Origin: Acidimicrobiia bacterium
GTDB taxonomy: Bacteria > Actinomycetota > Acidimicrobiia > Acidimicrobiales > Aldehydirespiratoraceae
DNA: 41,527 nucleotides
Reading direction: 5' to 3'
NCBI GenBank assembly: GCA_024421085.1
Contig: JAHQYN010000018.1
Location: forward strand, 1-41,527
This document shows, one piece after another, positions 2,898-35,930 of the stretch (its first letter is position 1; every line of letters starts with the position of its first letter). The notes beneath the pieces are model-generated. The model was not told the DNA's origin. It saw only the letters and a program-made list of their open reading frames with translations, and ran no database searches. A program made the position numbers and the translations under genes.

Positions 2898-3041
2898 GAC
2901 CGTCGGTCACCGGAGCACCGTCGGCCCAAAGAGCACCGTCGGTCACCAGAGCACCGTCGGCCCAAAGAGCACCGTCGGCCCAAAGAGCACCGTCGGTCAC
3001 CAGAGCACCGTCGGCCCAAAGAGCACCGTCGGTCAGGAGAA
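2898..3041. repeat. 18-bp tandem repeat, about 8 copies, between substrate-binding protein stop and permease start
   Basis: Alternating caccgtcggcccaaagag and caccgtcggtcaccagag units; last unit overlaps the stop codon of the downstream-labelled minus-strand CDS. Confidence 0.95.
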
Positions 3042-4808
3042 GGACCACTGCTCAAGGTTCCAGGTGAAGCTCTCCAGGGTGGGATTGTCCTCGAGATTGT
3101 TGAGGGTGTCGTTGTAGGCCAGGAAGAACGGAAGCTGGTAGACCGGGACGTTGGGCAGTGTCTGCCACATCAGAGCGTCAGCCTCGTTGAGCAGTTCTGC
3201 CTGCCGATCGAGGTCCAAGGTGAACGTCGATTCGGTCAGCAGGTCGTTGACCCGGTCGTCGACGTAAGCGCCGGGGTTGCTCGCGCTGCCGCTCCCGAAC
3301 ACCTGCATGGTCGAACTGGCAGGCAGCGGCCCGCCGACCCAGGCGAAGATCACCAGGTCGAAATCACCCGGGGGGTCTGGCGGATCGTTCTCGGAACCGA
3401 ACACCGGGCCGAATATCTCCCCGCCGGGCAGGTTGTCGATGGTCACCTCGATCCCCGCTTCGCCCAGTTGGCTCTGCACGAGTTCCTGAAACTGTTCCCG
3501 CCGGGAATTCCCTCCGGTGGTGCGGATGCGCAGGCTCAGCCGCCGCCCGTCGCGGGCGTAGACCCCGTCGTCGCCTTCGGTCCAACCGCCCTGCTCCAGC
3601 GCGGCCCGCGCTGCTTCGACGTCGCGGGTGCGGAACTCGGCGGGCGTGTTGTCCTGGTACTGCGGCTGACCGTTCACGAAGACCCGATTGCCCAGCGGCT
3701 CAGCGCTGTCGGAGAACGGACGCATGAGTGCGGTCACGATCAGTTCGCGGTCGAGCGCCAGGGCGATTGCACGCCGAGCCTCCAAAGGCACCGTCGCAGT
3801 GTTGAAGGTGATGTGCTCCCAGGTGGGGCCGAAGGTGATCGTGGAGGCCACGCCGTCGAGGGCTCCGATCTGATCCACCAGGTCGACCTGCGGCTGGGGA
3901 TAGATCACGTCGACCTCACCGTTCTCGAGGGCGAGCGGAAGGTTGCCGACATCGCTGATGAATCGGAACGTCACTTCGTCGATGTGGGGGCCGTCGCCGA
4001 ACCAGGTCGGGTTGGGCACCAGGGTAAGGTCGCTGCCCGGGTTGTATTCGTCGACCTGGTAGGGGCCGGCGGCCAACATCGGGTCCCCTTTGAAACCCTC
4101 GGTCCAGTCTAGGCCGAGGTGCGCGGGTGGGAACGGGCCCGAGAACAGCGCGATGTACTCGACGAAGGGCTGACCCTCGGGCCAGCTCAGCCGCACGGTC
4201 TTGTCGTCCACGACCTCGAGTTCGGCGCTGTCGAAACCGGCGGTCGCGGCGCAGTCGTCTTCGGGGTCGTTGCAGTTCTCGAAGTAGAACTCCAGGTCGT
4301 CGGAGCTGACGGGGGTCCCGTCGCTCCAGTTGGCGTCGGCGCGCAGTCGGTACTCCACGACCAGCGGGTCTTCGTTGACGATGGTCGGGAGCGTCTCGCA
4401 GAAGTACGGCTCGAATGTGGAGTTGGGAAGGGTGCGTGTGCAGGTCGGCCAGACGGCGCGGATGACCTGTCGTCCGGCCAGGAGGTTGTCGCCGGCGGTC
4501 AGGTTGTTGAAGTTGGTGAGTTCCTGCTCCAGACCGATGACCACCGAGGTGGGTTCGCTCGACGGTTCAGCGGCGGTGGTCGTAGTGGTCGTGGCCCCGT
4601 CAGGCGATTCGGCACCGGGTTGGTCGGGTTGGTCGTTGTCGCCGCAGGCGACGGCCAGCAAGGTCAGCGCGGTCACGATCCCAACCCAGCGAAACGACCT
4701 GTGCCGTTTGAACCCGGCGTGCTGTTTGATCCCGGCGTGCCGGGCGGACCCGGCGTGATGTGTGATCCCGGCGTGCCGGGCGGACCCATTGTGATTGTGT
4801 CGCTTCAT
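3033..4808 (-). CDS. Peptide ABC transporter substrate-binding lipoprotein (SBP_bac_5 family)
   Basis: Likely start MKRHNHNGSARH at 4808; hydrophobic signal with lipobox LLAVACG; body typical of family 5 SBP (EPLVVEYRLRADANWSDGTPVSSDDLEFYF). Confidence 0.92.
   Translation of the reverse strand: MKRHNHNGSARHAGITHHAGSARHAGIKQHAGFKRHRSFRWVGIVTALTLLAVACGDNDQPDQPGAESPDGATTTTTTAAEPSSEPTSVVIGLEQELTNFNNLTAGDNLLAGRQVIRAVWPTCTRTLPNSTFEPYFCETLPTIVNEDPLVVEYRLRADANWSDGTPVSSDDLEFYFENCNDPEDDCAATAGFDSAELEVVDDKTVRLSWPEGQPFVEYIALFSGPFPPAHLGLDWTEGFKGDPMLAAGPYQVDEYNPGSDLTLVPNPTWFGDGPHIDEVTFRFISDVGNLPLALENGEVDVIYPQPQVDLVDQIGALDGVASTITFGPTWEHITFNTATVPLEARRAIALALDRELIVTALMRPFSDSAEPLGNRVFVNGQPQYQDNTPAEFRTRDVEAARAALEQGGWTEGDDGVYARDGRRLSLRIRTTGGNSRREQFQELVQSQLGEAGIEVTIDNLPGGEIFGPVFGSENDPPDPPGDFDLVIFAWVGGPLPASSTMQVFGSGSASNPGAYVDDRVNDLLTESTFTLDLDRQAELLNEADALMWQTLPNVPVYQLPFFLAYNDTLNNLEDNPTLESFTWNLEQWSFS
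4701..4808. repeat. 18-bp tandem repeat, 6 units, in frame at the N-terminus of the lipoprotein
   Basis: gtgccgtttgaacccggc / gtgctgtttgatcccggc / gtgccgggcggacccggc / gtgatgtgtgatcccggc ...; encodes NGSARH-AGITHH-AGSARH-AGIKQH-AGFKRH. Confidence 0.92.
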
Positions 4809-5882: not shown

Positions 5883-7184
5883 GTGAAGCAGGTATCGATC
5901 GGTCTACTCGGATGCGGCAATGTCGGCAGTGCGTTCGTGTCGTTGTTGGAGCAGCGACGGACCACCATCTCGGCGCGCACGGGCGTTGAGCTTCGGGTGA
6001 CACGCGCAGCGGTCCGCTCGCTCAACAAGGACCGCGGACTCAAACTGCCCGCAGGCGTGTTCACCGACGACGCTGCGTCTGTGGTCGAAGATCCGGACGT
6101 CGACATCATCGTCGAGTTGATCGGTGGGGTCGATGAGCCGCTGGAACTGCTTCGCCGCGCGGTCGAACTTCGCAAACCGGTGGTGACCGGCAACAAGGCT
6201 CTGCTCGCGTCCCACGGCGCTGAACTGTTCGCGGCGGCCGACGCCGCCGGCGTCGATTTCCTCTTCGAGGCCGCAGTAGCCGGCGGGATACCCCTGATGC
6301 GACCGCTGAAGGCTTCGCTCGCAGGTGAACCCGTCCGTCGGGTGATGGGGATCATCAACGGCACCACCAACTACATCCTGACCAGGATGACCGACGCTGG
6401 CATCGACTATCGGACCGCGCTCGGCGAGGCGCAGGAGCTCGGCTATGCAGAGGCCGATCCGACCGCTGATGTGGAGGGGTACGACGCCGGCGCAAAAGCC
6501 GCGATCATCGCCTCGATCGTCTTCGGCTCGGTGGTGCAGTCAACCGACGTGTACCACGAGGGGATTTCGAACATCACCGCCGAGGACATCTCGGTGGCGG
6601 ACCGAATGGGATTCGCCGTCAAGGCCATTGCCGTCATCGAGGCGTTCGGGGACAACATCAGGAACCACCCGGAGATAGCGATCCGGGTCCACCCCGCGCT
6701 CGTCGTCAAGTCACACCCCCTCGCGGCCGTGCGCGACAGCTTCAATGCCGTGTTCATCGAGGGCGAAGCGGTCGGTGATCTGATGTTCTACGGGCGAGGT
6801 GCCGGTGGCCGACCGACAGCCAGTGCGGTCCTCGGTGATGTGGTCGACGCCGCCACCAACATGGTTCACGGCACACCGGGCCGGATCGGCGCCCTCGCAC
6901 CCGCCCGGATCCGACCACTGGACGCCCTGAAATCGGCGTTCTACATGAGCCTCGCCGTCACCGACCGGCCGGGTGTGCTGGCCCAGGTCGCTGATGTGTT
7001 CGGCCGCCACGGCGTGTCGATCCAGTCGATGGAACAGCAGGGCCTCGGAGATCGTGCCCGTCTGATCTTCATTACCCACGACTCGGTGGAGGCAGCCGTG
7101 AAAGCCACGATGGCCGAGTTGCGGCACCTCGATGCAGTCGTCGACGTCCACTCCGCCATCCGGGTGATCGGTGGCGAGGGCTGA
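5883..7184 (+). CDS. hom: Homoserine dehydrogenase
   Basis: VKQVSIGLLGCGNVGSAFV NAD-binding motif; GIINGTTNYILTRMTD; C-terminal ACT-like region; followed by thrC and thrB. Confidence 0.96.
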   Translation: MKQVSIGLLGCGNVGSAFVSLLEQRRTTISARTGVELRVTRAAVRSLNKDRGLKLPAGVFTDDAASVVEDPDVDIIVELIGGVDEPLELLRRAVELRKPVVTGNKALLASHGAELFAAADAAGVDFLFEAAVAGGIPLMRPLKASLAGEPVRRVMGIINGTTNYILTRMTDAGIDYRTALGEAQELGYAEADPTADVEGYDAGAKAAIIASIVFGSVVQSTDVYHEGISNITAEDISVADRMGFAVKAIAVIEAFGDNIRNHPEIAIRVHPALVVKSHPLAAVRDSFNAVFIEGEAVGDLMFYGRGAGGRPTASAVLGDVVDAATNMVHGTPGRIGALAPARIRPLDALKSAFYMSLAVTDRPGVLAQVADVFGRHGVSIQSMEQQGLGDRARLIFITHDSVEAAVKATMAELRHLDAVVDVHSAIRVIGGEG

Positions 7185-7186
7185 CC

Positions 7187-8587
7187 ATGGCCGTGCGCTA
7201 CGGCAGTTCCCGCGGCAGAGCGCCGGAACTGGGATTCGCCGACGTCCTCCTCACCGGCTTGGCACCCGACGGTGGACTGTTCCTGCCGACCGATTGGCCG
7301 ACCCTGCCTGCGCACACGGTTTCGACGTCGTCATCGTATGTGGATTTGGCCGCTGAGGTGATTCAGCCGTTCGTTGGCGGCGCGCTCAGCCGTGTTGACC
7401 TCCAGTCGATTCTGGAGGACGCATACGCCTCGTTCGACCATCCCGACGTGTGCCCCCTAGTGCAGCTCGACGACGGGCATCACCTCATGGAGTTGTTCCA
7501 CGGACCGACCCTGGCGTTCAAGGACATCGCCCTGCAGGTGGTGGGCAGGCTGTTCGACCACGAACTCAAGTGCCGCCGGCAACGGGTGATGATCGTCGGC
7601 GCGACCTCCGGCGACACCGGCTCAGCCGCGATGGAGGCAGTGCGCGGCAGCGAGCAAGTCGACATCGTGGTGCTGTTCCCCCACGGCCGGACCACAGAGG
7701 TCCAACGCCGCCAGATGACCACCCTGAAAGACCCCAACGTCCATGCGGTGGCGGTCCAGGGAACATTCGACGACTGCCAGGACCTGGTCAAAGCGATGTT
7801 CGGCGACGAACCCTTCCGCGAGCGCCACAGTCTGGCTGCGGTCAATTCGATCAACTGGGCTCGGGTGATGGTTCAGATCGTCTACTACGTGTGGGCGGTC
7901 CAGCGACTCGGCCGTGGTGTGCAGGCAACTACTTTCTGTGTTCCCACAGGCAACTTCGGAAACGTCTTCTCGGGTCATGTGGCGGCGCGGATGGGCTTGA
8001 ACGTTGACCGATTCCTGATCGCATCGAACCGCAACGACATACTCTCGCGCCTCATCGAGACGGGAGAGATGCGCGCGGAGGAAGTGGTGCCGACCCTGTC
8101 GCCGAGCATGGACATTCAGATCTCCTCGAACCTCGAGCGCCTGCTGTATGAACTGCTCGACGGCAACGGTGCAGCCACCGCCGAGCTGATCGCCGGGTTC
8201 CGCGACCACGGCCGTGCCGCGCTCACCCCGGCGCAGCATCAGCGCCTGACAGCCGCCTTCTCCGGTGACCGTATCGACGACTCGGAGACCCTGGCGATCA
8301 TCAGCGAGGTCTACGACAGCCATGGCATGCTGGTCGACCCACACACCGCGGTGGGTATCGGGGTGGCCCAGCGCCATCGCCGAGCCGGCGAGCATGTCGT
8401 GTCGCTGGCCACGGCGCACCCGGCCAAGTTCGGTGACGCGGTGGAGCAGGCGACAGGAGTGCGCCCCGAATTGCCTCCCCACCTAGCCGACATCTTCGAT
8501 AGCCGCGAAGATTATGCGGTGCTTCCCAACGACCTTGCGACCGTCGAGGCCTTTATTGACGGGCTCAGCGTGCGCGGTCTCGGCTGA
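7187..8587 (+). CDS. thrC: Threonine synthase
   Basis: MAVRYGSSRGRAPELGFADVLLTGLAPDGGLFLP; FHGPTLAFKDIALQ PLP-lysine motif; VGATSGDTGSAAMEA. Confidence 0.96.
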   Translation: MAVRYGSSRGRAPELGFADVLLTGLAPDGGLFLPTDWPTLPAHTVSTSSSYVDLAAEVIQPFVGGALSRVDLQSILEDAYASFDHPDVCPLVQLDDGHHLMELFHGPTLAFKDIALQVVGRLFDHELKCRRQRVMIVGATSGDTGSAAMEAVRGSEQVDIVVLFPHGRTTEVQRRQMTTLKDPNVHAVAVQGTFDDCQDLVKAMFGDEPFRERHSLAAVNSINWARVMVQIVYYVWAVQRLGRGVQATTFCVPTGNFGNVFSGHVAARMGLNVDRFLIASNRNDILSRLIETGEMRAEEVVPTLSPSMDIQISSNLERLLYELLDGNGAATAELIAGFRDHGRAALTPAQHQRLTAAFSGDRIDDSETLAIISEVYDSHGMLVDPHTAVGIGVAQRHRRAGEHVVSLATAHPAKFGDAVEQATGVRPELPPHLADIFDSREDYAVLPNDLATVEAFIDGLSVRGLG

Positions 8588-8649
8588 TGCGCGGGCTCAG
8601 CGTTGACGGGCTCAGTATTGACGGGCTCAGCGTGCGCGGTCTCGGCTGA
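8587..8649 (+). other. Mini-ORF 1 in the thrC-thrB chain (20 codons, MRGLSVDGLSIDGLSVRGLG)
   Basis: ATG overlaps thrC TGA as TGATG; stop TGA overlaps next ATG at 8649. Confidence 0.7.
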
Positions 8650-8726
8650 TGCGCGGGCTCAGCGTTGACGGGCCCAGTGTTGACGGGCCCAGTGTTGACG
8701 GGCTCAGCGTGCGCGGTCTCGGCTGA
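8649..8726 (+). other. Mini-ORF 2 (25 codons, MRGLSVDGPSVDGPSVDGLSVRGLG)
   Basis: TGATG at both ends. Confidence 0.7.
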
Positions 8727-8803
8727 TGCGCGGGCTCAGCGTTGACGGGCTCAGTATTGACGGGCTCAGTATTGACGGGCTCAGCGTGCGCGGTCTCGGC
8801 TGA
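8726..8803 (+). other. Mini-ORF 3 (25 codons, MRGLSVDGLSIDGLSIDGLSVRGLG)
   Basis: TGATG at both ends. Confidence 0.7.
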
Positions 8804-8850
8804 TGCGCGGGCTCAGCGTTGACGGGCCCAGTATTGACGGGCTCGGCTGA
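8803..8850 (+). other. Mini-ORF 4 (15 codons, MRGLSVDGPSIDGLG)
   Basis: TGATG at both ends; stop overlaps thrB ATG at 8850. Confidence 0.7.
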
Positions 8851-9668
8851 TGCGCGTTCGGGTGCCGGGTTCCTCGGCCAATCTGGGTCCGGGGTTCGAT
8901 GCGCTGGCGCTTGCCGTCGACCGCTACTACGAACTCACCGACGAGCCCCTAGAGGGGTTCGAGCCGGTCGGCACCGATGATCTCGTCTGGACCGCGCTGA
9001 AACGCACCGGTGCCTCCTTCGGGCGGTTGTGGTCGCGCAGCGAGCTGCCGATAGCGCGGGGGATGGGCTCGAGCGCGGCCGCCTGTGTCGGGGCCGCGTA
9101 CCTCGGCTTCCGCAACGACGGACTGGACCACACCGCCGCGCGCCATGCCGCGTTCACGGTCGCCGATGAGATCGAGGGCCATCCCGACAACGCCGCGGCT
9201 TCGGCATACGGCGGGTTGAACCTTGCGGTCGGCGGCCGGATCCATACTGATGTTCCGTGCTTGGCGCCCGGTCAGTTCTACATGTGGATTCCGGCGAGCG
9301 TGTCGTTCACAGCCTCAGCCCGCGCGGTTCTTCCCGAGGCGCTTGACATTGTTGATGTGGTAACCCAGGCCGCTTCTTGCGCGGCGGTCTATGCCGGGCT
9401 GTTGAACGGGTCGTGGGATCTCATCGCGGGCGCCAACGGAGACCAGATACATGAGACGGCCCGGTTGAGCCTGCTGCCCGACTCAGCGGAAGTGGTGAGC
9501 AGGCTTCGGGCCGCCGGGCATGCGGCGTGGCTGAGCGGGTCCGGCCCCAGCGTCGGCGCGCTCATCGAGTCGGGCGGCGAGCAGATGCGCCCCGAACCCA
9601 CCGGCGACTGGGTGGCCCTCGGAGTCGACACCACCGGCTGCGTTGAGGTGAAGGCCTTGGGCGGATGA
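8850..9668 (+). CDS. thrB: Homoserine kinase (GHMP kinase)
   Basis: MRVRVPGSSANLGPGFDALALAVDRYYEL; PIARGMGSSAAACVGA GHMP motif; EIEGHPDNAAAS. Confidence 0.95.
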   Translation: MRVRVPGSSANLGPGFDALALAVDRYYELTDEPLEGFEPVGTDDLVWTALKRTGASFGRLWSRSELPIARGMGSSAAACVGAAYLGFRNDGLDHTAARHAAFTVADEIEGHPDNAAASAYGGLNLAVGGRIHTDVPCLAPGQFYMWIPASVSFTASARAVLPEALDIVDVVTQAASCAAVYAGLLNGSWDLIAGANGDQIHETARLSLLPDSAEVVSRLRAAGHAAWLSGSGPSVGALIESGGEQMRPEPTGDWVALGVDTTGCVEVKALGG

Positions 9669-12600
9669 CAACTGCCACCTCCGCGCTGCTGCCTGAGCGC
9701 CTACCTGGGGTCGGGGAGTTGGTGCAAGTGCGGTCGCGGCGCTGGATCGCGGAGGGGGTGACTGAGTCGGGCGTGCCCGGCGAGTCGGCAAGCGTCCTGC
9801 TGGCTTGTGTGGACGACGACAACCAAGGCCAAGCACTGGAGGTGCTATGGGATTGCGAGCCGGATCGTTGGATTCTCAGTGACGAAGGATGGGCCGACTT
9901 GGCATCCAAGGGGCTCGATTCGCCGCGTTTGTTCGCGGCCTACCTCCACACACTTCGATGGAACTGCACCACGGCCACCGACTCACGGCTGTTCCAGGCA
10001 CCGTTTCGAGCGGGCATCACCATCGACGCATACCAGATGGAGCCTCTGCGCAAAGCGCTGACGCTGCCTCGAGTGAATCTGCTCATCGCCGACGACACCG
10101 GTCTAGGCAAGACCATCGAGGCCGGCCTGATCGCCCGCGAACTGCTGTTACGCCGCAAGGCCAGGTCCATAGTGGTGGCTGCGCCGCCGTCGATGCTGGA
10201 GCAGTGGCGGAGCGAGATGGAGGAGCGCTTCGGCCTCGTGTTCGAGATCCTCGACCGCGCCTACGTGTCGCGGATGCGCCGTGAGCGGGGCTTCGGTGTC
10301 AATCCTTGGCGCACCCACAGCCGGTTCCTGGTGTCTCACAACCTGCTGATCGACCCGGCGTACACCGACCCGATGCGGGAGTGGCTCGGTGAGGCGCGGG
10401 CCGGGAGCCTGCTGATCCTCGACGAGGCGCACCATGCGGCGCCGTCATCGGGGGGCCGCTATGGAATCGAGACCAAGATCACGAGGGCCGTGCGCGATTT
10501 GGCCCACCGCTTTGGGCATCGGCTGTTCCTGTCAGCCACCCCCCACAACGGCCACTCCAACAGCTTCTCCACGCTGCTGGAGTTGCTCGACCCGTACCGG
10601 TTCACCCGCGGCGTGAAGGTGCGGCCCAAGACCGACCTCGAGCCGGTGATGGTGCGGCGCATCAAGGAGGATCTTCGCGAGATCCAGGGCGGCTTCCCCA
10701 AACGCAACGTGGTGCCGGTCGAGATCGCCGGTCTGCCCGACGACGCCCCGGAACTGGTCCTGTCGAGGTTGCTCGACGAATACCGCACAGCGCGCGAGCA
10801 GCGCTACGCGTCGGAGCCGACCCGGGTGCGCTTCGCCTCCGGGCTGATGGTCGTCGGTCTGCAACAGCGTCTGCTGTCCTCGGTCGAGGCCTTCGCTCGC
10901 AGCCTCAAGGTCCACCGCGAGACCGTTCAGCGCCACTGGGACAAAGCCCGTGGATCCACCCGTGATCAGCCTTCCGGTTCGCACATCCCGGACGTGAGAG
11001 ACACCGCCGACGATCGGACACCCGGCTTCCTTCGACCTCCGGATGCCGACGACGAGCGAAGCGACTGGACGGCGGACGAGGTCGAGGCCGAAGAGGAGGC
11101 CCAGATCTCGTTGATCGACGCCGCGTCCGACCCGGTCGCCGCCCCCGAGGCGGTGGCCTGGGCCAACGAGCAGCGGCTCCTCGACCAGATGCAGAAGATC
11201 GCGGAGGACACGCGGCACATTCCCGACGCCAAGACGCTCTGGCTCATCGACTGGATCCGCGAGAACCAGGGCCCGGCCCTGCCCGCCCTCGGCCCCCCGC
11301 CCGAGTGGACGGATCGGCGAGTCCTGATCTTCACCGAGAACCGTGAGGGCACTAAGCGCTACCTCAAGTCGATCCTCGAGCAGGCCATCGAGAGCAGCCA
11401 TCGGGCTGACGAGCGCATCGAGATCATCGACGGGCTCACCGGCCGGGCCCGCCGCCGCGAAGTGCAGCGCCGCTTCAACGCCGATCCCGCCAGTGAGCCA
11501 CTGCGCATCCTGATCGCCACCGACGCCGCCCGGGAGGGCCTGAACCTGCAGGCCCACTGCTCGGACCTGTTCCATTTCGATCTGCCTTGGAATCCGGGCC
11601 GCATCGAGCAGCGCAACGGTCGGATTGACCGCAAGCTCCAGCCTGCAGCCGTCGTCAACTGCCACTACTTCGTGCTGCCCCAGCGGGTCGAGGACCGGGT
11701 GCTGGAGGTGCTGGTCACCAAGACCGAGACGATCAAACGCGAGCTGGGCAGCCTCTCGCAGGTCATCGACGATTCAGTGGAGCGGAGGATGCTGTCAGGA
11801 GGAATCCGCCACCGTGACGCCGAAGCGCTCCGTGGCGAGATCGAGGCAGAGTCGCTGGAGGACAGTCGGAGACGAACCACCGAGGAGGAGCTTGAACAGG
11901 CACGTGACCGTTCCCAGGAGTTGAGAGGCCAAATCGAGAAGTGCCAGGACCTTCTGGATAGATCCCAGCGCTGGGCGGGGTTCTCGCCTGGACCATTCCG
12001 CGACGCCATCGACTGCTCGCTGAGCCTTCTGGGCGCTCCGCCGCTGGTGGAAGAAACCGACGATGAGGGCCGCAGGGTATGGACGTTCCCGCCGCTGGAG
12101 CAGCGCGCCGCCACCGATCCGAGTTGGACATCGACGCTCGACTCGCTCAGGGCGCCGCGCAAGCTTGACCAGAAGGTGCCCGAGTGGCGCCGCGATGCGC
12201 CGATTCGCCCCGTCGTGTTCGAGGACGCGGGACGCCTCGACGAAGAGACGGTTCACCTGCATTTGGAGCAGCGGGTGGCGCAACGTCTGCTTTCCCGCTT
12301 CAGGGCGCAGGGCTTCATCCATCACGACCTGTCGCGGGCCTGTCTCGCCCAGTCGAGGGACGCGATCCCCCGGGTGATCCTGCTGGGGCGCCTGTCTCTC
12401 TACGGCCGGGGTGCCGAGCGGCTCCACGAGGAGATCGTGCCGGTGGCGGCCCGCTGGCGCGACCCAGCGAGCCGCGACGGGCCGTTGCGGGCCTACGCCC
12501 GGGACGCGGAGACACGGACGATGGATTTGCTGGAGGTTTCGCTCAACGGCCGCGGGCGTGCCCCCAGCGAGGTCATCCAGCGCCGCCTGATGGATGCAGC

Positions 12601-12994
12601 TGTGAGAGACATCAAGGACCTGCGTCCCCAGCTCGAGCCGAGAGCCGCCGAACACGCCGAAACCGCGAAGCGCAGCCTCGCCCAGCGCGGCGAGCGAGAG
12701 GAACGTGCGCTGCGCGACACTCTTGAGAGGCACCGCGGCCAGGTGGAGGCCGAACTCGCAAGCCATCAGCGCGACTACACGCAGCTCCTGTTGGACTTCC
12801 AGGGCCAGGATGCCCATCAGCTTCAAGAGGACACGCGCCAACTTGATGCCAACATGCGGCACTGGCGCACGCGGCTTGAGCAGTTCGAGCAGGACTTGGA
12901 GCGTGAGCCAGCCCGTGTGCGCGAGTTCTACGAGGTGAGGGTGCAGCGAGTCGAGCCCGTTGGTCTGGTTTACCTGTGGCCGGAGACGAACTGA
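9665..12994 (+). CDS. drmD: DISARM SNF2-like helicase DrmD
   Basis: DDTGLGKTIEAGLIARELL Walker A, LLILDEAHHAA, FLSATPHNGHSNSFSTLLELL, DAAREGLNLQAHCSDLFHFDLPWNPGRIEQRNGRIDR; directly followed by methylase and drmABC. Confidence 0.9.
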   Translation: MTTATSALLPERLPGVGELVQVRSRRWIAEGVTESGVPGESASVLLACVDDDNQGQALEVLWDCEPDRWILSDEGWADLASKGLDSPRLFAAYLHTLRWNCTTATDSRLFQAPFRAGITIDAYQMEPLRKALTLPRVNLLIADDTGLGKTIEAGLIARELLLRRKARSIVVAAPPSMLEQWRSEMEERFGLVFEILDRAYVSRMRRERGFGVNPWRTHSRFLVSHNLLIDPAYTDPMREWLGEARAGSLLILDEAHHAAPSSGGRYGIETKITRAVRDLAHRFGHRLFLSATPHNGHSNSFSTLLELLDPYRFTRGVKVRPKTDLEPVMVRRIKEDLREIQGGFPKRNVVPVEIAGLPDDAPELVLSRLLDEYRTAREQRYASEPTRVRFASGLMVVGLQQRLLSSVEAFARSLKVHRETVQRHWDKARGSTRDQPSGSHIPDVRDTADDRTPGFLRPPDADDERSDWTADEVEAEEEAQISLIDAASDPVAAPEAVAWANEQRLLDQMQKIAEDTRHIPDAKTLWLIDWIRENQGPALPALGPPPEWTDRRVLIFTENREGTKRYLKSILEQAIESSHRADERIEIIDGLTGRARRREVQRRFNADPASEPLRILIATDAAREGLNLQAHCSDLFHFDLPWNPGRIEQRNGRIDRKLQPAAVVNCHYFVLPQRVEDRVLEVLVTKTETIKRELGSLSQVIDDSVERRMLSGGIRHRDAEALRGEIEAESLEDSRRRTTEEELEQARDRSQELRGQIEKCQDLLDRSQRWAGFSPGPFRDAIDCSLSLLGAPPLVEETDDEGRRVWTFPPLEQRAATDPSWTSTLDSLRAPRKLDQKVPEWRRDAPIRPVVFEDAGRLDEETVHLHLEQRVAQRLLSRFRAQGFIHHDLSRACLAQSRDAIPRVILLGRLSLYGRGAERLHEEIVPVAARWRDPASRDGPLRAYARDAETRTMDLLEVSLNGRGRAPSEVIQRRLMDAAVRDIKDLRPQLEPRAAEHAETAKRSLAQRGEREERALRDTLERHRGQVEAELASHQRDYTQLLLDFQGQDAHQLQEDTRQLDANMRHWRTRLEQFEQDLEREPARVREFYEVRVQRVEPVGLVYLWPETN

Positions 12995-15900
12995 TGGCGA
13001 GACTCGACCCGCATGTCGCGGCCCACCTGGAGTGGATCGGGTTCGTCCGACCCACTGGCCTCGTTGTGTCGGCACCCGCACTGGTGCGTGCTGGTGTGAT
13101 CCTGAACCGCCACGACACCGAGGGCCAGCGACTGCTGCGCGCTTGGGACGAGGACACCGATGCTAGAACTCCGACAGATCGGGCATCGGGACTGGCAGAA
13201 TTCCGAGGGTTCGCGGAGACGGTGCTGCGCTGGAGCTTCTCGCCAAAGGGATATGGGGGCACTCCGGATTCTCCCGTCCCGCCCGATCTGGAAATCGGAC
13301 TGCCCGAGTCCGGTGGCGTTTTCCGCCCCGACTTCGCAGTCCGGACTGAACCGCTGCGAGTCCCGCCGAACGAACGCGGAGAACGAACGTCGACTTGGCA
13401 GCTGCTGGTCAGCGTCATTGATCCCGCTGAGGGCTTCGACCACAGCACTGCAGGCGGCTTGGAACTATCGGCTCACGGGCGCATGGAGAGGCTGCTGCGC
13501 CACACCGGTGTCCCGGCCGGGCTGATCTTCAACGGCACCGCGCTTCGACTCGTTTCGGCACCAACCGGCGAGAACTCGGGTTGGTTGGACTTCCATTTGG
13601 CCGACATGCTCCAGGCCGCCGGCCGTCCGATCTGCTCGGCTATGCGGGAACTGCTCGGACAGACCCGCCTGTTGTCCGTACCGGCTGATAAACGGCTCGC
13701 GGCGCTGCTGCACGACAGCCGCAAGTTCCAAAACGAGGTCAGCGAGCGCCTAGCCCAACAGGTGCTCCACGCCCTCTATGAGTTGCTGCGCGGCTTCCAG
13801 GCCGCGCACGACACGTCCGGAGGCGAGCTGCTCGGCCGCCAGCTCATCGACGATTCCGACAAGATCTACCAGGGTCTGCTCACCGTGGTTCTACGCCTCG
13901 TGTTCCTGCTGTATGCAGAGGAGCGTGACATGTTGCCCCAGGACGAGATCTTCTTGGGATCGTATGCGGTATCGGGCCTCTACGAGCGCTTGCGAGAGGA
14001 CGCGGCCATCTACCCCGACACGATGGACCAGCGCTACGGTGCCTATGCACAGTTGCTCGCGCTGTGGCGCATGGTCCACGACGGTGCCCGCGGTCCACAG
14101 ATGAGCCTGTCACCCCGGCACGGTGACCTGTTCCACCCCGACCGCTACCCGTTCTTGGAGGGCCGCGGCGGGGAACACGTTCGCCAGGTCGGCGAGCGCG
14201 TCGATCCGCCCCTCGTGTCCGACGGCGCGATTCACCGTGTGCTGGAGAAGCTGATCGTGCTCGACGCCGAGCGGATCTCCTACCGGGCGCTGGACGTGGA
14301 GCACATCGGCTCCGTCTACGAGACGATGATGGGCTTCCGCCTGGAAACCGCGACCGGGCGCAGCATCGCCGTCAAGGCCGCCAAGAAGCACGGCGCCCCT
14401 GCCACCGTCAACATCGAGGAACTACTGGCCGAACGCCCGCCCAAGAGGGCCAAGTGGCTCCGAGACCGCACCGACCGCAAGCTCACCGCAAAGGTCAGCA
14501 GAGCCGTGCAGCAGGTCGACCCTCAGGTCGGGGGAACTATCGACGATCTGCACGCCGCCCTCGACTCTGTGATCGACAAGAACGCCACGCCCGATCTCGT
14601 GCCGACGGGAGCGATGGTGCTGCAACCCAGTGAGGAGCGGCGACGCTCAGGCTCCCACTACACGCCCCGCGAACTCACCGAGCCGATCGTGCGCATCGCG
14701 TTGGAGCCCATCTTCAACCGCCTTCGCGAGAAAGCCCAAGGGCCGCCCCAGCCCGAGCAGATCCTCGACCTGAAGGTGTGCGACCCAGCTATGGGTTCCG
14801 GCGCGTTCCTAGTCGAATCCTGCCGCCAACTCGCCGACGCCCTCATTGAATCCTGGCGAGTCAACAACATCGTGCCGGTGATCCCACCCGACGAGAACGA
14901 GGTGATCTTCGCTCGCCGACTTGTTGCCCAGCGTTGCCTCTACGGCGTCGACCGCAATCCCAAGGCTGTCGACCTAGCCAAGCTGTCGCTCTGGCTAACA
15001 ACGCTCGCCAAGGAGCACCCTCTTACGTTCCTCGACCACGCCCTGCGCCACGGCGACTCACTGGTGGGACTGTCGATTCCCCAGATCCAAGCCTTTCACT
15101 GGAAGGGCGACGCCCCTATCTTCGAGGAAGGCTTTGAGGCGCTTCAGGCCCGCGAACACTTGGCTAGAGCTGCCGAACTGCGCCAGCTCATCCGCGAGGC
15201 CGACGACACCGTGGCCGACTGGGAGCTAAGAGATCTCTGGGACGAGGCCCAGACAGAGACTAGGGAGGTACGGCGATTGGGCGACCTCGTGCTGCTCGCC
15301 TTCTTCAAGGGAACTAGGCCGAAGGAGCGTGAACTTCGCCGCAGACAGCTCGCAGAATCTGTCCTCCTCGGTGACACGGAACTGCCGCAGGCCCGGCTAG
15401 CAGAGCTCCGCAACGCCGAACAGCCACTCGTCCCTTTCCACTGGGAGATCGAGTTCCCCGAGGTCTTCGACAGAGACAACCCAGGCTTCGACTCCATAGT
15501 CGGCAACCCGCCATTCCTGGGAGGAAGGAATCTCTCCGCGGCCCAAGGAGAGGTCTACTCAAAGTGGCTACTTGCGACGCATGAGCAGTCGAACGGCGGA
15601 GCAGACCTTGTAGCTCACTTCTTTAGGAGGGCATTCGATCTAATTCGAAGTAGCGGCACCTTCGGACTGATAGCTACGAACACGATCGCTCAAGGGGACA
15701 CACGAACTAGCGGCCTGCGTTGGATATGTCAGAACGATGGGGAAGTGTATTGTGCCCAACGAAGAGTCAAATGGCCAGGCGTCGCAGCAGTAATCATCAG
15801 TATTGTCCATGTCAGCAAGGGATCAGTGATTGCCGCCAAGTGTCTAGACAACACATTCGTTGAGAAGATCACTGCCTTTCTCTTCTATCGAGGTGGACAT

Positions 15901-17031
15901 CAAGACCCCAAGCGACTTGCCAATAACTCCGCGAAGAGTTTCCAAGGAAGCATCGTGCTCGGTATGGGCTTCACATTCGACGACCGTGATAGACGTGGAG
16001 TTGCCTCTTCTCTTGAGGAAATGAACCATTTGATTGATGAGAATCCTAACAATCGTGAAGTCTTGTATCCATATATCGGTGGGGAAGAACTTAATGGTAG
16101 TCCTACTCATGATCATCACAGGCACATAATAAACTTTGGAGAGAACGATCAAGCACATTGTATGAACCGATGGCCTCAGCCCTTTCATATCGCAGAAAGG
16201 CGTGTCAAGCCTGAGAGGATGCTCAAAGACGCAGACAAATACCCTAGAATGGTCAACGAATGGTGGAAGTACTGGAATGCACGGCCGGAACTGTACGCCG
16301 CGACGTCTGACTTAAGGCGCGTTCTAGCGAATTCTCGAGTTAGTCATCGCTTGCAGTACGCATTCTTACCCTCAAACATGGTGTATGCGGATTCACTAAT
16401 CGTATATCCGTTTGAGACTTACGCGGCATTCTGTATGCTACAGTCTCGGCTACATGAGGCCTGGGCACTTTTTTTTGGATCATCAATGAAGGATGACCTT
16501 CGTTATACGCCTTCAGACTGCTTCGAGACCTTCCCGTTCCCCCGAGATTGGAAGACACAAAGCGATTTGGAAATGTCTGGCAAGGAGTACTACAACTTCC
16601 GAGCTGATCTGATGGTACGGAACGATGAAGGCATGACCAAAACCTACAATCGCTTTCATGATCCGTACGAGAACAATGTCGATATCGAGAGGCTTCGCAC
16701 CCTGCACACTGCCATGGATCGTGCCGTCCTTGCGGCATACGGATGGTCCGATGTCCCGGTTGACTGCGAGTTCCTTCTCGACTATGAGATCGAGGAGGAG
16801 ACATGGGGCAACAAGAAGAAGCCCTACCGTTACCGTTGGCCCAACGAGGTCCGCGACGCAGTGCTCGCCCGCCTCTTGGAACTCAACGGCGAGCTAGCCG
16901 TCGAGGAAGCTCAAGCAGGCATCACCAAACGCACGAGGACTATAGGCGGCCGACGGTCAGATGCTCGGTCTGTTCAACTCTCGGCCGAGGAAGGTTATGT
17001 CTCTGCTACGTTGTGGGATACAGCCTTCTAG
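12994..17031 (+). CDS. drmMI: DISARM class 1 adenine-specific DNA methyltransferase DrmMI (PglX/Eco57I-like)
   Basis: Motif I DPAMGSGAFLVESCRQLADALIESW, motif IV SIVGNPPFLGG; C-terminal specificity-like region; TGATG-type overlap with drmD. Confidence 0.9.
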   Translation: MARLDPHVAAHLEWIGFVRPTGLVVSAPALVRAGVILNRHDTEGQRLLRAWDEDTDARTPTDRASGLAEFRGFAETVLRWSFSPKGYGGTPDSPVPPDLEIGLPESGGVFRPDFAVRTEPLRVPPNERGERTSTWQLLVSVIDPAEGFDHSTAGGLELSAHGRMERLLRHTGVPAGLIFNGTALRLVSAPTGENSGWLDFHLADMLQAAGRPICSAMRELLGQTRLLSVPADKRLAALLHDSRKFQNEVSERLAQQVLHALYELLRGFQAAHDTSGGELLGRQLIDDSDKIYQGLLTVVLRLVFLLYAEERDMLPQDEIFLGSYAVSGLYERLREDAAIYPDTMDQRYGAYAQLLALWRMVHDGARGPQMSLSPRHGDLFHPDRYPFLEGRGGEHVRQVGERVDPPLVSDGAIHRVLEKLIVLDAERISYRALDVEHIGSVYETMMGFRLETATGRSIAVKAAKKHGAPATVNIEELLAERPPKRAKWLRDRTDRKLTAKVSRAVQQVDPQVGGTIDDLHAALDSVIDKNATPDLVPTGAMVLQPSEERRRSGSHYTPRELTEPIVRIALEPIFNRLREKAQGPPQPEQILDLKVCDPAMGSGAFLVESCRQLADALIESWRVNNIVPVIPPDENEVIFARRLVAQRCLYGVDRNPKAVDLAKLSLWLTTLAKEHPLTFLDHALRHGDSLVGLSIPQIQAFHWKGDAPIFEEGFEALQAREHLARAAELRQLIREADDTVADWELRDLWDEAQTETREVRRLGDLVLLAFFKGTRPKERELRRRQLAESVLLGDTELPQARLAELRNAEQPLVPFHWEIEFPEVFDRDNPGFDSIVGNPPFLGGRNLSAAQGEVYSKWLLATHEQSNGGADLVAHFFRRAFDLIRSSGTFGLIATNTIAQGDTRTSGLRWICQNDGEVYCAQRRVKWPGVAAVIISIVHVSKGSVIAAKCLDNTFVEKITAFLFYRGGHQDPKRLANNSAKSFQGSIVLGMGFTFDDRDRRGVASSLEEMNHLIDENPNNREVLYPYIGGEELNGSPTHDHHRHIINFGENDQAHCMNRWPQPFHIAERRVKPERMLKDADKYPRMVNEWWKYWNARPELYAATSDLRRVLANSRVSHRLQYAFLPSNMVYADSLIVYPFETYAAFCMLQSRLHEAWALFFGSSMKDDLRYTPSDCFETFPFPRDWKTQSDLEMSGKEYYNFRADLMVRNDEGMTKTYNRFHDPYENNVDIERLRTLHTAMDRAVLAAYGWSDVPVDCEFLLDYEIEEETWGNKKKPYRYRWPNEVRDAVLARLLELNGELAVEEAQAGITKRTRTIGGRRSDARSVQLSAEEGYVSATLWDTAF

Positions 17032-17087
17032 TGGCAAACAGCATCCTCATTGTCAGTCTCATGCCATCACAACGTGACCTAGATCAA

Positions 17088-18179
17088 CTAGTAGATGCCA
17101 AACTGCCGGCCTCCCGACATGGTGAAGTGCCCTCCCACACGTTTGCTGCGTCGTCTCAAGTGTGCTCTATTCGCGGTTGGCACGACGATAAGTTCATAGA
17201 CCACGGCACCATCATGTGATGCTTTACTAAACACGAGAACCTGGTTGTCATAGGAAGGCGGGCCCGTTGATGATCCTGGGACAGGCACCGTAAGCACGTC
17301 CATCGAGTTGTTTGAGTATCTCAATGTTCTGTCCCAGGAGATGTGGCCCTTGTGTCTAATAGCCAATTCTCGCAAGTGGGTATCAGGAGGAACATTCTTG
17401 GCCTCAACGCCAAAGAAGACCCGGGTCATCGCGCGCATCATTATCTGGTTCCCCGGAAGTCCCTTCCCGCGGTTCCTGGTCACATTCCCAGCTTCAATCC
17501 AGAGATGTTGCGCTGATCGAAGTCTTAACAGATCTTCCGCCCGGAATCGAGTCCGAAGCTCAACCGCATTGGTTGCGTCGTCCGAGGTCGGTGTAGGTTG
17601 CCCAATAGAATCAGAGTGGGCTGACTGGTAGCGGTCCTCGATTTGTGAGTACCTAGTGGCATCTTGCCATAGGTGACGGAACCACTTGTTCGTGTCTCCG
17701 AGTGCTTTCCAGGCATGCCGTTCGGCGGACGTCTTGGCATCCCGAACTTCGATGACCGTGTCGAGTTCATGGCCTATGGATAGGCCGTTCCTTGAGAGAT
17801 TTGCTGAGCCAGAGACAAGGAGTCGGGCAGTCGGCCCCAGAAAAAGAAATCCCTTCGGATGAAACGGTATCTGTGGAGCACATCTGGGTGAATTCACGAT
17901 CTGGGCTCCGAATGGTATCCGAACCGATGATCGGGGCATCGAGTCGAGCGCGCCGAGTGCAGCTGGCTCTGACCGGCACCAGTCAAGAGCGACCAGCCAC
18001 TGTGCCTTGAGATGGGAGCCCCGACACGCTTCGGAGCGCTCAAGTAACTGAATCCCGCTCTGCGTCGCATACGCCACGGCGGCCCTCAGGTGTCTATAGT
18101 CCCGTTGTCGAGTCGCGTCGGCAAGCAATTCGATGACCGAGCCCTGGCCGGGTTGACCGATCGTCTCAGTCCTGAGCAT
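17088..18179 (-). CDS. Phospholipase D-like (HKD) domain protein, putative nuclease, embedded in the DISARM locus
   Basis: FHPKGFLFLGPTARLLVSGSANLSRNGLSIGHELDTVIEV (H-x-K ... GSAN pattern); C-terminal LWIEAGNVTRNRGKGLPGNQIMM resembles PLD-type restriction endonucleases; likely start MLRTETIGQ at 18179. Confidence 0.75.
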   Translation of the reverse strand: MLRTETIGQPGQGSVIELLADATRQRDYRHLRAAVAYATQSGIQLLERSEACRGSHLKAQWLVALDWCRSEPAALGALDSMPRSSVRIPFGAQIVNSPRCAPQIPFHPKGFLFLGPTARLLVSGSANLSRNGLSIGHELDTVIEVRDAKTSAERHAWKALGDTNKWFRHLWQDATRYSQIEDRYQSAHSDSIGQPTPTSDDATNAVELRTRFRAEDLLRLRSAQHLWIEAGNVTRNRGKGLPGNQIMMRAMTRVFFGVEAKNVPPDTHLRELAIRHKGHISWDRTLRYSNNSMDVLTVPVPGSSTGPPSYDNQVLVFSKASHDGAVVYELIVVPTANRAHLRRRSKRVGGHFTMSGGRQFGIY

Positions 18180-18181
18180 TG

Positions 18182-18451
18182 CTATTTCACCTTGTCTGCG
18201 AAGCAGCGATCTTGATGGCTCGCACCTAGATCCTCGGGAGCGCCCAGCAAGCATCCACGAATCCGCAAGCGAGGATGATGTCCCGACAATCCTGGCCTCG
18301 CTCCGCCTGCTGCCTCTCCACGAGAGCGGATCTCCGACTCAATAGCCCGGCCGCGCGGAGTATTGTGAGCGACCACGGCCCGCTCCATCGGCGCGCCACG
18401 TTCCTCGGCGAGTGGCGCGGTCACCTGCATGTCCGTTTCGCTCCTGCTCAT
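18182..18451 (-). CDS. Uncharacterised small ORF upstream of the PLD-like gene
   Basis: MSRSETDMQVTAPLAEERGAPMERAVVAHNTPRGRAIESEIRSRG...; ORF only, no recognised domain. Confidence 0.2.
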   Translation of the reverse strand: MSRSETDMQVTAPLAEERGAPMERAVVAHNTPRGRAIESEIRSRGEAAGGARPGLSGHHPRLRIRGCLLGAPEDLGASHQDRCFADKVK

Positions 18452-18639
18452 CGGCTGACCCTATCCATGCGAGCATCCCTCGCGCACATGCCCGGGCTGC
18501 GTCGCTGCCAGCAGAGCCGATCTGGAGGTCGCCTGCCGTCGAAAGACGGTGGCGGCTGAAGCGACACAGCCTGCTAGCGACAAGCGGTTGGACCGTCGAT
18601 CCATGGGGTGGAAACGAAGCCCGGCCTATCCTGTCGGCC

Positions 18640-19110
18640 ATGACACACGAAGTAGGATACCTGCCGCGGCTGGCGAGCTGGCGAGAGTTCGTCGACTACA
18701 TGGAGGGCCATCCTGTGCCTAGCGCAGCCGATGTCGAGTATCCAGACACCGGACGCAAGCTGGTCAAGACCTACGTGCTGGAGACCGCCGGCAGCGACCG
18801 GCAGATGCCGGACCTAGCGAGCAGGTTCGCTGGCCGTGTGCGTCTGCAACGTCTCGACGACACGCTGAATCGCGTTGAGGATGCCGACCACAACGGAGAG
18901 GTAGCGGCAGCGACAGATGTTGTGTCCAATGCTCTGCAGAGTCTCGGCGGATTCCAAAGGCGGAGCAGAGATACGATCTCGTTGTCGCTCTCAAGCTACG
19001 AGGAGCAAGCGGAAGTTGTGAAGTTCCTGGAACAGGCTAATCCAGCCGACAAGATGACGAATCTGGAAGCAGCAGTCAACGAAGCACCAAGGCTCTTCGA
19101 TGCCTATTGA
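18640..19110 (+). CDS. Uncharacterised protein between PLD-like gene and drmA
   Basis: MTHEVGYLPRLASWREFVDYMEGHPVPSAADVEYPDTGRKLVKTYVLETAGSDRQMPDLASRFAGRVRLQRLDDTLNRVEDADHNGEV...; ORF with plausible protein composition, divergent from the PLD gene. Confidence 0.6.
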   Translation: MTHEVGYLPRLASWREFVDYMEGHPVPSAADVEYPDTGRKLVKTYVLETAGSDRQMPDLASRFAGRVRLQRLDDTLNRVEDADHNGEVAAATDVVSNALQSLGGFQRRSRDTISLSLSSYEEQAEVVKFLEQANPADKMTNLEAAVNEAPRLFDAY

Positions 19111-19220
19111 GTCAGCCCACATCACTCTCGGTGATCCCGAGAAAGTCGCCGCGATCGGTGTCGCCAGATGAGGCCATTATCCCAACGACTCTGCAGATGG
19201 CTGCGTAGCCTGACTTGCGA

Positions 19221-22200
19221 ATGAACGCTGAATCCCCGTCGCCGTCGACCGCCTTCACCGACTCCCCAGCGGTGCGCGTGTACCTCGTGGACGCGCTGAG
19301 GTTCGACCTGGTCGGGCCGAGGCACGGGCATGAGTTGGCCGAAGAGATGCTGCCGGGCTGGGTACGGCCGTCCAACTGGTATCTGACCGGGTTCTTGGTT
19401 CCTTCTGACACGCCCTTCGAGTTGCGGTCCGACACAGACGCGGACGACCCGCTCGATGAGACACCCGACAACGCGGGACTTGCAGAGGAGTCCTCGGAAG
19501 AGCGCTCAGCCGCCAAGCGTGGGTTCTTCCCGTCCTCGATCGGCCTGAGCTTCCTCGTGTCGAGCGAGTCGGATGATCTTGTGGTGACAGTCCGCTGGGG
19601 CGACTACGAGAGAGACGAGTACCAGGGTCCCGACGGCAAATCTGTCGAGGTGTGGCAGCGACACCCGCAGGAGCGCACTGTGGCCGTAGCGCTGTCGAAG
19701 CCGGTTGCTGACCATCCAGTGCCTGATTCGGGCGGGTTGCGGCTGCACGTCGTCTTGCGGGCCGTCGAGACGGAGCGGTTAGCGGGGCTGGCGGCGGGCA
19801 CCCGGTCGGTGTCGGTGTTCTTGATCAACGGCCGGAGATCTCAAGCCGGCAGTCCCGACGACCCGGACAGCGCCGATGACGCTGTGCGGGCCTATACCTT
19901 CCAGGCCGAAATCGAGGTGTCCGGTGACGTAGCCTTCGTGCCACGGCCTGATCCGCGCGGAGCGGTGGCCACCGACTGGGACGACCAGGTTGCCGACCTG
20001 CACTACTCCGACGTGCCCGCGTACGCCACGGGCCACGGAACCTCCGCGGACTGGGAAACGATTAACGGCGAGTGCCATGTGCTTCGCACGACATGGATCC
20101 CGAGCGCGACAGTGGCCAAGACCGAGACGGTGGCCGTGTCGGAGGTGGTACTCTCGATGGAGACGCTTGGTGTCCTCGCTGACGGGCAGGCAGCCCGATC
20201 CGCCCTTGAGCCGCTGGTGGAACATTACCGCGACTGGATCGAAACTCAGAGCACCGGGCTCGGCATCCTCGGCGACGATGCGCGCGAGACGGCTGAGGAG
20301 TTGTTGCGGCGAGCCGCACTCGCGGCGGACCGTATCGAGCGAGGGATTGGCATGCTGGCCTCTGATCCGGATGCCCTGGATGCCTTCAGAGTCGCCAACC
20401 GCGCCGTTGCTCGCGCTCTGCGCCGACGCGCTCTCCTGCCTGACAACGACCATGCTGACGGTGAGGGCCCGAACTGGCGCGCCTTTCAGCTCGCGTTCAT
20501 CCTGCTGAACGTCGGCGGGTTGATCGATTCTCGCGACCCTGAACGAGAGACTGTCGATCTGTTGTTCTTCCCGACAGGCGGCGGCAAGACGGAGGCCTAC
20601 CTGGGCCTGGCCGCGTTCACGATCGTTCTGCGCCGGTTACGGCATCCGGGCAACAGCGGACTAGAGGGCGCGGGAGTCGCGGTGATCATGCGCTACACCC
20701 TGCGCCTGTTAACGCTCGATCAGCTAGCTCGGGCCGCTGGGCTAGTGTGCGCTCTGGAGCTCGAGCGGGCAAACGACCCTGGCCGTTACGGCACCTGGCC
20801 GGTGGAGATCGGATTGTGGGTGGGCAAAGCGGCGACGCCCAATGTGATGGGCCGCAAGGGAGACAGTCGATCAGACACCGCCCGATCGAAGACCAGCCAG
20901 TTCAAGTCCAACCCTCACAGCAAGCCTTCCCCGATCCCGCTGGAGAGTTGCCCCTGGTGCGCGACGCGCTTTGAACGGTCGTCGTTCACGCTGCTGCCCG
21001 ACGACGATCAGCCCACGGAGTTGCGGATCGTGTGCGCGAACTTCGAATGCGACTTCAGCGGGGACCGGCCTCTGCCGATCCTGGCTGTGGATGAGCCCAT
21101 CTACCGCCGCTTGCCGTGCTTCCTGATCGCCACCGTGGACAAGTTCGCGTCGCTGCCTTTCACAGGGCAGACCGGCGCACTGCTAGGCGGCGCGGTGCGA
21201 CACGACACCACCGGTTTCTACGGCGCCGCCGAGCCGAGGAAGGGCAGGCCGCTGCAACGGCCACTGGCGGGCCCCGATCTTGTGATCCAGGACGAACTGC
21301 ATCTTATCTCAGGCCCGCTCGGAACGATGGTCGGACTGTACGAGACGATGATCGAGGCGCTCTGCACCCGAACCGCCGCTATCGCAAAGGAGGTTGCGAA
21401 CGACTCAAGCGAGGTTGCTACCCGCCCGGTGCGCCCCAAGATCGTGGCCTCGACCGCTACGGTGCACCAGGCCCAAGACCAGATCCAGGCCCTGTTCGCG
21501 CGGTCGAGCACACAAGTCTTCCCGCCGCCTGGGCCTGACCGTCGAGACTCGTTCTTCGCGCAAGTCATCCCAGCAGAGCAGATACCCGGCCGGCTTTATC
21601 TCGGTATCTCGTCGCCCGGCCGGAGCCCAAAGGTGCTGATGCGCCGGGTGTGGCTGGCGCTCATGGGCGCCGCCGAGCGCGCCTATCGCGACGCGGGCGG
21701 GCACCGCAACCACGGCAACCCGGCCGATCCGTACATGACTGTGCTGGGCTACTTCAACAGCCTGCGGGAACTGGGCGGCGCGCGCCGGATCCTCGAGGAA
21801 GAGGTGCAGCACACGGTAAGGACCTACGGCCTGCGGCGGCGCATCGGCCAGCCGAGAGGATCCTTCCAGGACCGGCGAACGATGTCCGATGTCGTCGAGT
21901 TGACTTCCCGCGTGTCCACCGACAAGGTGGCGCAGGCCCGGCACCGGCTGAGTCTCGGTGCCCACCAGAGCGGGCGCGTTGATAGCGCAATCGCCACCAA
22001 CATGATCTCGGTGGGCCTCGACATCACCAGGCTAGGGCTGATGGTGGTGGTCGGCCAGCCGAGAACCCACGCCGAGTACATACAGGCCACCAGCCGGGTC
22101 GGACGCGATGATCAGAGGCCAGGACTCGTGGTGACGTTGCTGAACGTCCACAAACCCCGCGACCGCTCCCACTACGAGCGGTTCCGGCATTATCACGAGA

Positions 22201-22706: not shown

Positions 22707-22708
22707 GC

Positions 22709-24487: not shown

Positions 24488-25275
24488 CCTTCCCGGGCGC
24501 GCATCTAGCAGCGCTGCCGCTTCATCGGCGGCGACGGCTCGTGGATGCCATCGAGACCGGGATGCTCCCGGACGCTCCCTCGGCGGCGGCCCTGTGGTCG
24601 GTGCTCGGACAGCGAGGCGAGGTAGACCATGTCCGCGACGACCTGATCGCTCTCAAGGGCGTCGGCGTCGTCGGTCCGGCGGTAGCGGTATGGCTGAGGG
24701 CTCTGGAACTCGCCCAGGCACGGGCGCCTGTGCCGGACCTGGTTTGGTCCGGTCCCGAGGTACCGGGGCTGCACGCACGTGACACTCGCCGGGTCTACGA
24801 AGAGCTGGTGCGAAGCGCGCGGGATTCGGTGTGGATGAGCACCTATGGCTACTTCGACGGCCCGCGCGCCTTCGCGGACCTGGCTGAGCGTATGGACGCC
24901 GTAGCCGGGCTGCGTGTCGTGTTGATGCTCAATATCCAGCGCGCCCGAGGCGACACCACAGCATCCGACCATCTCGTACGGCGCTTCGCCGACCGATTCT
25001 GGGGCACCGACTGGCCCGGCCAGTCCAAGCCGGTCGTCTACTACGATCCGCGCTCCCTCGATACCGACAGACCTACCGGTGTCTTACACGCCAAGGCACT
25101 CGTAGCGGACGACGCGGCCGTGTTCATAACATCAGGCAACCTCACCGAGGCAGCCCTTGACCGCAATATCGAACTGGGTCTCCTGATCCGAGACCCGACC
25201 CTGGCCAAGACGACAACCACCCACTTCCAAGCCTTGATCGACCGCGACCTGCTGCGCCCACTCCCAGAGGAATGA
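24484..25275 (+). CDS. drmC: DISARM phospholipase D-like protein DrmC
   Basis: GTG start overlapping drmB stop; single HKD VLHAKALVADDAAVFITSGNLTEAALDRNIELGLLI. Confidence 0.92.
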   Translation: MTFPGAHLAALPLHRRRRLVDAIETGMLPDAPSAAALWSVLGQRGEVDHVRDDLIALKGVGVVGPAVAVWLRALELAQARAPVPDLVWSGPEVPGLHARDTRRVYEELVRSARDSVWMSTYGYFDGPRAFADLAERMDAVAGLRVVLMLNIQRARGDTTASDHLVRRFADRFWGTDWPGQSKPVVYYDPRSLDTDRPTGVLHAKALVADDAAVFITSGNLTEAALDRNIELGLLIRDPTLAKTTTTHFQALIDRDLLRPLPEE

Positions 25276-27212: not shown

Positions 27213-27320
27213 TGCCAACGCCGACCGATGCCAACGCCGACCGATGCCAACGCCGACCGATGCCAACGCCGACCGATGCCAACGCCGACCGATGCCAACG
27301 CCGACCGATGCCAACGCCAA
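27209..27320 (+). repeat. 16-bp tandem repeat, 7 copies, starting at the rho stop codon
   Basis: ccgatgccaacgccga unit repeated at 27225, 27241, 27257, 27273, 27289 with variant end units at 27209 and 27305. Confidence 0.96.
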
Positions 27321-28530: not shown

Positions 28531-29712
<1,182 letters not shown>

Positions 29713-35912: not shown

Positions 35913-35930
35913 GAGGCATATAGTCTGTCG

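Follow-up and report, generated by a model that had tools for sequence, protein, structure and literature searches.

A chain of mini-ORFs built from a tandemly repeated stop-start overlap between thrC and thrB in an uncultured actinobacterium

The junction of two amino acid genes, thrC and thrB, in an uncultured actinobacterium is a chain of tiny open reading frames (ORFs), each of them overlapping the next one. The best explanation, which we consider fairly probable, is that a minisatellite captured the overlap between both genes, and that coupling of thrB to thrC was kept by serial reinitiation while the repeats expanded.

The thrC-thrB junction

Positions refer to the window, the whole stretch of 41,527 nt which was analyzed; the features of the junction are on the plus strand. 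Downstream of hom (5883-7184, identified by Pfam) lies thrC (7187-8587), coding for a threonine synthase with the Pfam domains Thr_synth_N, PALP and THR4_C. Its TGA stop codon (8585-8587) shares its A with an ATG at 8587. Four mini-ORFs follow: 8587-8649 (20 codons), 8649-8726 (25 codons), 8726-8803 (25 codons) and 8803-8850 (15 codons). The first three have a TGATG overlap at both ends, and the stop of the fourth overlaps the ATG of thrB (8850-9668), which codes for a homoserine kinase of 272 aa with Pfam GHMP kinase domains and whose start is kept in five siblings. The coordinates and codon counts given in the initial annotation agree exactly with the sequence. The four peptides are, in order, MRGLSVDGLSIDGLSVRGLG, MRGLSVDGPSVDGPSVDGLSVRGLG, MRGLSVDGLSIDGLSIDGLSVRGLG and MRGLSVDGPSIDGLG (20, 25, 25 and 15 aa).

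The 262 nt spacer between the genes is filled by a compound minisatellite (8556-8856), whose start is placed by TRF at about 8554-8556 and its end at 8856, with periods of 15, 62 and 77; these are tandem copies of the minisatellite or VNTR kind. It is formed by 15 bp blocks of five codons (xDGLS/xRGLG), with a TGATG junction every 15n + 2 bp. The mini-ORFs contain 4, 5, 5 and 3 of these blocks (MRGLS, VDGLS, IDGLS, VDGPS, VRGLG, IDGLG). All five ATGs (8587, 8649, 8726, 8803 and 8850) are found in the same context, CTGATGC, and all five links are -1 overlaps: As the initial annotation had proposed, expansion preserved the stop-start overlap at each copy. Start-to-start distances are 62, 77, 77 and 47 bp, always 15n + 2, where the two extra bases are the three bases of a stop codon minus the shared one. 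A change in the number of 15 bp copies leaves the chain intact, also as proposed, but the phase condition is due to the two extra bases of the overlap and not to the 15 bp unit alone, a point absent from that annotation. The chain survives changes of both 15n and 15n + 2 bp. The locus is thus protected against instability of its repeats, just the reverse of phase variation. The peptides are probably by-products, and phase is what is preserved.

An ATG-only scan of 0.71 Mb of this genome, 0.385 Mb of a sibling and 0.78 Mb of other taxa gave no second chain of four mini-ORFs between long ORFs. We discarded a search for NTG/TGA chains with all start codons as too permissive, shuffled sequences also yield long chains.

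The host genome is a 3.55 Mb draft in 241 contigs, and the exact number of thr copies is uncertain. Among named organisms, those closest to it are metagenome-assembled Acidimicrobiaceae/Acidimicrobiales. The array exceeds the length of a short read, and it might be an artefact of a draft metagenome-assembled genome. We consider this very improbable: The copies differ in diagnostic substitutions and in length, the 15 bp repeat is also present in siblings, and a comparable 20 bp x16 array (CCGAAGGAGACACCGTGAGC) is found upstream of an iolG-like gene in sibling G005, whose assembly has only 6 contigs.

A complete DISARM-like set (DrmD, DrmMI, DrmA, DrmB and DrmC by PADLOC) is found between thrB and rho (9665-25275). 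The drmD ATG overlaps the thrB stop by -4 (GGATGACA), so the thr chain runs directly into a defence system. No DISARM-like proteins are found at this locus in siblings (L033-L035), where rho follows thrB. Two other regions of the window contain candidate defence genes, an AAA_14/DUF4143 protein matching PDC-S01 and a GmrSD_N/AlbA_2 protein (35736-37292 and 38864-41203).

Origin of the array

In five genomes of the same genus, thrC and thrB overlap directly, through TGATG in G001, G003 and G004, TAGTG in G005 and TAATG in G002. As judged from these genomes, both genes overlapped ancestrally, in agreement with the initial annotation, which had suggested an ancestral TGATG. The end of thrC in these siblings contains in-frame VDGLS-like blocks of 15 bp: three to four in G001, G003 and G004, two in G005 and one in G002. 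The repeat has thus long existed as an in-frame minisatellite at the end of thrC. A similar case is the C-terminal tail of a putative pyrG in another contig of the genome under study (L002:1500-1620, contig C28), an in-frame gene-tail minisatellite with 15 bp repeats of the SVDAP type.

Only in this genome does the duplication include TGATG and the first thrB codons (ATGCGCG joined to GGCTCAGC). The thrB gene is single-copy in all six genomes, its N-terminus being conserved at the last ATG; among the loci examined outside the genus it was not found beside thrC. The plain overlap and the thrC-tail repeats of the siblings point to the thr array as a local minisatellite which has captured the overlap. 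Depending on the sister species, there are either no mini-ORFs or four before thrB.

Expanded overlaps at other junctions

The initial annotation was limited to one locus, and this genome has expanded overlaps at many other, unrelated junctions as well. We surveyed 1.40 Mb of it (about 40%; G000) and 385 kb of G005. Minisatellites are unusually abundant in this genome and make up 3.9% of its bases. It has 18 arrays of at least 60 bp per 100 kb, while G005 has 8.8 and other taxa have 1.4. Repeat-built ATG-only chains between long ORFs are found in contigs C26, C31, C28 and C54 (units of 71, 89, 17 and 20 bp), and the wider survey added C48 (137 bp) and C15, C5 and C237 (17 bp each); the one in C5 is common to G005. 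Orthologous comparison places overlaps multiplied into mini-ORF chains before nadK, dapC, hemG, iolG, aroQ and other genes. Outside the window, the genes we take to be nadK, dapC, hemG, iolG, aroB, aroQ and pyrG are named from our own reading of the sequence. In siblings, the junctions of nadK, dapC, hemG and iolG are mostly plain -4 overlaps. At the iolG junction, 0, 1 or about 11 mini-ORFs are found between the genes, depending on the species. The repeat copy number thus differs at the thrB and iolG junctions among sister species, a comparison across species and not strains.

A particular case is aroB-aroQ. The siblings have a linker mini-ORF of 18 codons overlapping both genes, which is lengthened by one 17 bp unit in G005 and by several in G000. 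The 18-codon linker with -4 overlaps is found in G000, G001, G003, G004 and G005 (L277-L282), and it is, as far as its conservation indicates, a natural relay independent of recent repeats.

The repeat units of ten loci have no sequence in common, as no pair of them gave a match. For the thr array, the rest of the genome contains a single weak partial match, in the tail of another gene. The mini-ORFs before dapC and hemG open with the N-terminus of the downstream protein (DapC residues 1-19, HemG residues 1-31). This bears on the insertion at the overlap of a mobile element similar to the mycobacterial MIRUs, whose general architecture, as outlined in PMC12548453, is the same. Units without a common sequence, which copy the ends of the flanking genes, and a thrC repeat already present in siblings make such an insertion hardly credible.

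The number of mini-cistrons might also act as an adaptive dial, tuning the ThrB:ThrC ratio or varying within populations as a contingency device. Stepwise attenuation by serial reinitiation is conceivable, copy number does differ between sister species (0 or 4 before thrB; 0, 1 or about 11 before iolG), and in M. tuberculosis the rnc-fpg repeat array correlates with expression, according to the part of PMC2734929 which deals with it. On the other hand, copy changes never turn the gene off, and an equal structure at many unrelated genes suggests a mutational habit rather than a device specific to thr. We regard a dial as improbable. The phase-variable part of the initial interpretation is thus not supported, since 15n or 15n + 2 bp changes never break the chain, while the ancestral overlap, the preserved junctions and the neutrality of 15 bp changes stand.

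A simpler alternative is a neutral minisatellite: Expansion by slippage, with thrB starting independently at its own ATG and the chain being a geometric by-product without function. The richness of the genome in minisatellites is in its favour. Among co-directional gaps of 20-400 nt, mini-ORF chains span 14/51 of those filled by arrays and 21/392 of those free of them (p = 5e-6), but this excess alone does not show selection, since duplications with a unit of size 2 mod 3 form chains almost automatically. In a simulation in which 126 real overlaps were duplicated in tandem, 96% of the duplications with a 2-mod-3 unit resulted in a complete chain, a 0-mod-3 unit mostly lengthened the downstream protein, and a 1-mod-3 unit interrupted continuity about half of the time. 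The four thr links therefore amount to about one event of evidence.

Completeness of the chain was rejected as a sign of selection: 36-50% of the array chains survived random indels, and continuity was retained in 73-81% of the duplications simulated from real overlaps, as a 0-mod-3 unit does no more than lengthen the downstream protein. Completeness being uninformative, we used the spacing class as a fair test. Spacing by the best TRF period was also discarded (8 of the 18 arrays spanning an overlapped stop are 2 mod 3), since some of the arrays are contained within a mini-ORF, and the period given by TRF is in some cases a multiple of the true unit.

A frame-blind test was applied to 457 called genes whose stop overlaps a start, looking for the nearest near-copy of the 18 nt context within 400 nt. 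The nearest copy of an overlapped stop is at a 2-mod-3 spacing in 13/19 cases (p = 0.002), and in 11/16 if only genes closely followed by another one in the same direction are counted (p = 0.004). Plain intergenic arrays give 31/127 (Fisher test against 13/19, p = 2.5e-4). Without one member of an orthologous pair among the 19, the count is 12/18 (p = 0.004). With a 14 nt context the result is weaker (8/15), and little weight should therefore be given to the exact p-value. The bias is real, although of moderate size, and six cases depart from it. Between the surveyed parts of both genomes there are 55 orthologous junctions; only two overlaps are expanded, both 2 mod 3.

A spacing of 2 mod 3 leaves both proteins unchanged and the coupling geometry intact, and we infer that selection is the cause of the bias. 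Several arrays break the rule, which agrees with neutral expansion, as does the ease with which chains arise in the simulation. However, those apparent exceptions which were compared with siblings retain a continuous relay: Two of them, in contig C20, keep -4 links, and in the one before a ruvX-like gene the ancestral spacing is +1 (TGACATG), the chain being complete if +1 steps are allowed. Together with the contrast between 13/19 and 31/127, and with a thrB gene preceded by neither a promoter-like site nor a good Shine-Dalgarno sequence, they make neutral expansion unlikely, though it is the most serious of the alternatives. For the genus as a whole, we tentatively suggest that stop-start overlaps all over the genome are repeatedly duplicated in tandem, and that selection favours the copies spaced by 2 mod 3. 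This process would yield serial-reinitiation relays, with up to about 11 mini-cistrons, leading to core biosynthetic genes (ThrB, NadK, DapC, HemG, AroQ).

Other repeats are found in the window. The rho stop lies within a TGATG which opens a 16 bp x7.3 array (27211-27327), crossed by a 55-codon ORF which overlaps the following called ORF by -4; its unit is 1 mod 3, a departure from the 2-mod-3 rule. More minisatellites are found at or near gene ends (864-1002, 2899-3032, 4701-4800, 29455-29527 and 35597-35725), most of them with basic units which are multiples of three.

Translation across the array and related systems

The favoured series of events, capture of the overlap followed by serial reinitiation, would be as follows. 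A 15 bp minisatellite would already exist in the coding tail of thrC, as in the sibling species, and recombination would then duplicate a segment also carrying the ancestral TGATG and the first thrB codons. As every module measures 15n + 2 bp, the stop of each copy overlaps the next ATG, and the spacer would become a relay of four mini-cistrons. Ribosomes leaving thrC would terminate and reinitiate at successive TGATGs up to thrB, which would keep both genes translationally coupled over a spacer otherwise too long.

According to PMC12548453, coupling is most effective at -4 to +3 nt and, apart from some exceptions, largely disappears at distances above 30-40 nt, and examples in PMC6728339 include several natural overlaps with strict dependence on upstream translation. 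A bare spacer of 262 nt is thus expected to uncouple thrB, while the relay brings the spacing back to -1 at each step, inside the coupling range. Searches for promoters, terminators, Rfam families and folds gave no convincing alternative signal at the junction. The initial annotation had named an independent thrB promoter or ribosome binding site as evidence against coupling: We find no sigma-70-like promoter within 8300-9000, and no Shine-Dalgarno match of at least 4 nt ahead of thrB. The latter is weak evidence, because use of this signal is patchy (40-60% of the genes of this genome have at least 4 nt). An attenuator or structured leader RNA is not apparent either, with no Rfam match in the array and a fold z-score of -0.71. 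With neither promoter nor Shine-Dalgarno sequence, coupling is the most plausible route to ThrB, and translation along the chain would proceed by serial reinitiation.

Five serial reinitiations could cut ThrB strongly unless each is efficient, and a dosage effect per link is possible. In our opinion, the relay probably has no dedicated regulatory role. Copying an overlap in tandem seems to be a natural means of extending the boundary between two genes while ribosomes continue to pass. How ribosomes are handed over from stop to start in bacteria is still debated (30S or 70S scanning, or RNA unfolding). Orthologous pairs from sister species form a natural ladder of chains with one, two, five and about twelve links, which would yield the reinitiation efficiency per link directly. 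The rule they suggest, that an overlap duplicated at 2-mod-3 spacing spares both proteins and their coupling, could explain why repeats such as MIRUs are tolerated inside operons.

The elementary junction is identical to that of ordinary termination-reinitiation pairs, ATGA or TGATG (PMC6728339, PMC12548453), and the ancestral thrC-thrB is an ordinary example; here, on the contrary, the junction is repeated in series through mini-ORFs which do not look functional. In the rnc-fpg VNTR of M. tuberculosis, an array also fills the gap between genes which are nearly adjacent in relatives, and its length correlates with expression, but the account of it in PMC2734929 that concerns the array describes no mini-ORF relay. 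In the open-licence literature, MIRUs are the only precedent we found in which tandem repeats go together with coupling by overlapping stops and starts.

The closest known case is thus that of the mycobacterial MIRUs, for example the 77 bp repeats between senX3 and regX3 (Supply et al. 1997, via PMC12548453 and PMC4213456); one thr module is likewise 77 bp long. As PMC12548453 presents them, MIRUs are short repeats with an ORF coupled to the neighbouring gene by -4 spacing, and they are apparently mobile. In both cases short tandem repeats lie between operon genes, each with a small ORF whose start and stop overlap its neighbours. MIRU copy number varies, and their arrangement has been proposed to reduce the impact on the adjacent gene, a logic which seems alike here. 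On the other hand, MIRUs are one dispersed family with -4 spacing, while the thr links are -1 (TGATG), and no dispersed sequence family or mobile insertion is seen at our loci. To judge from their sequences, the arrays are home-made: Each locus has its own repeat, derived from the ends of its flanking genes.
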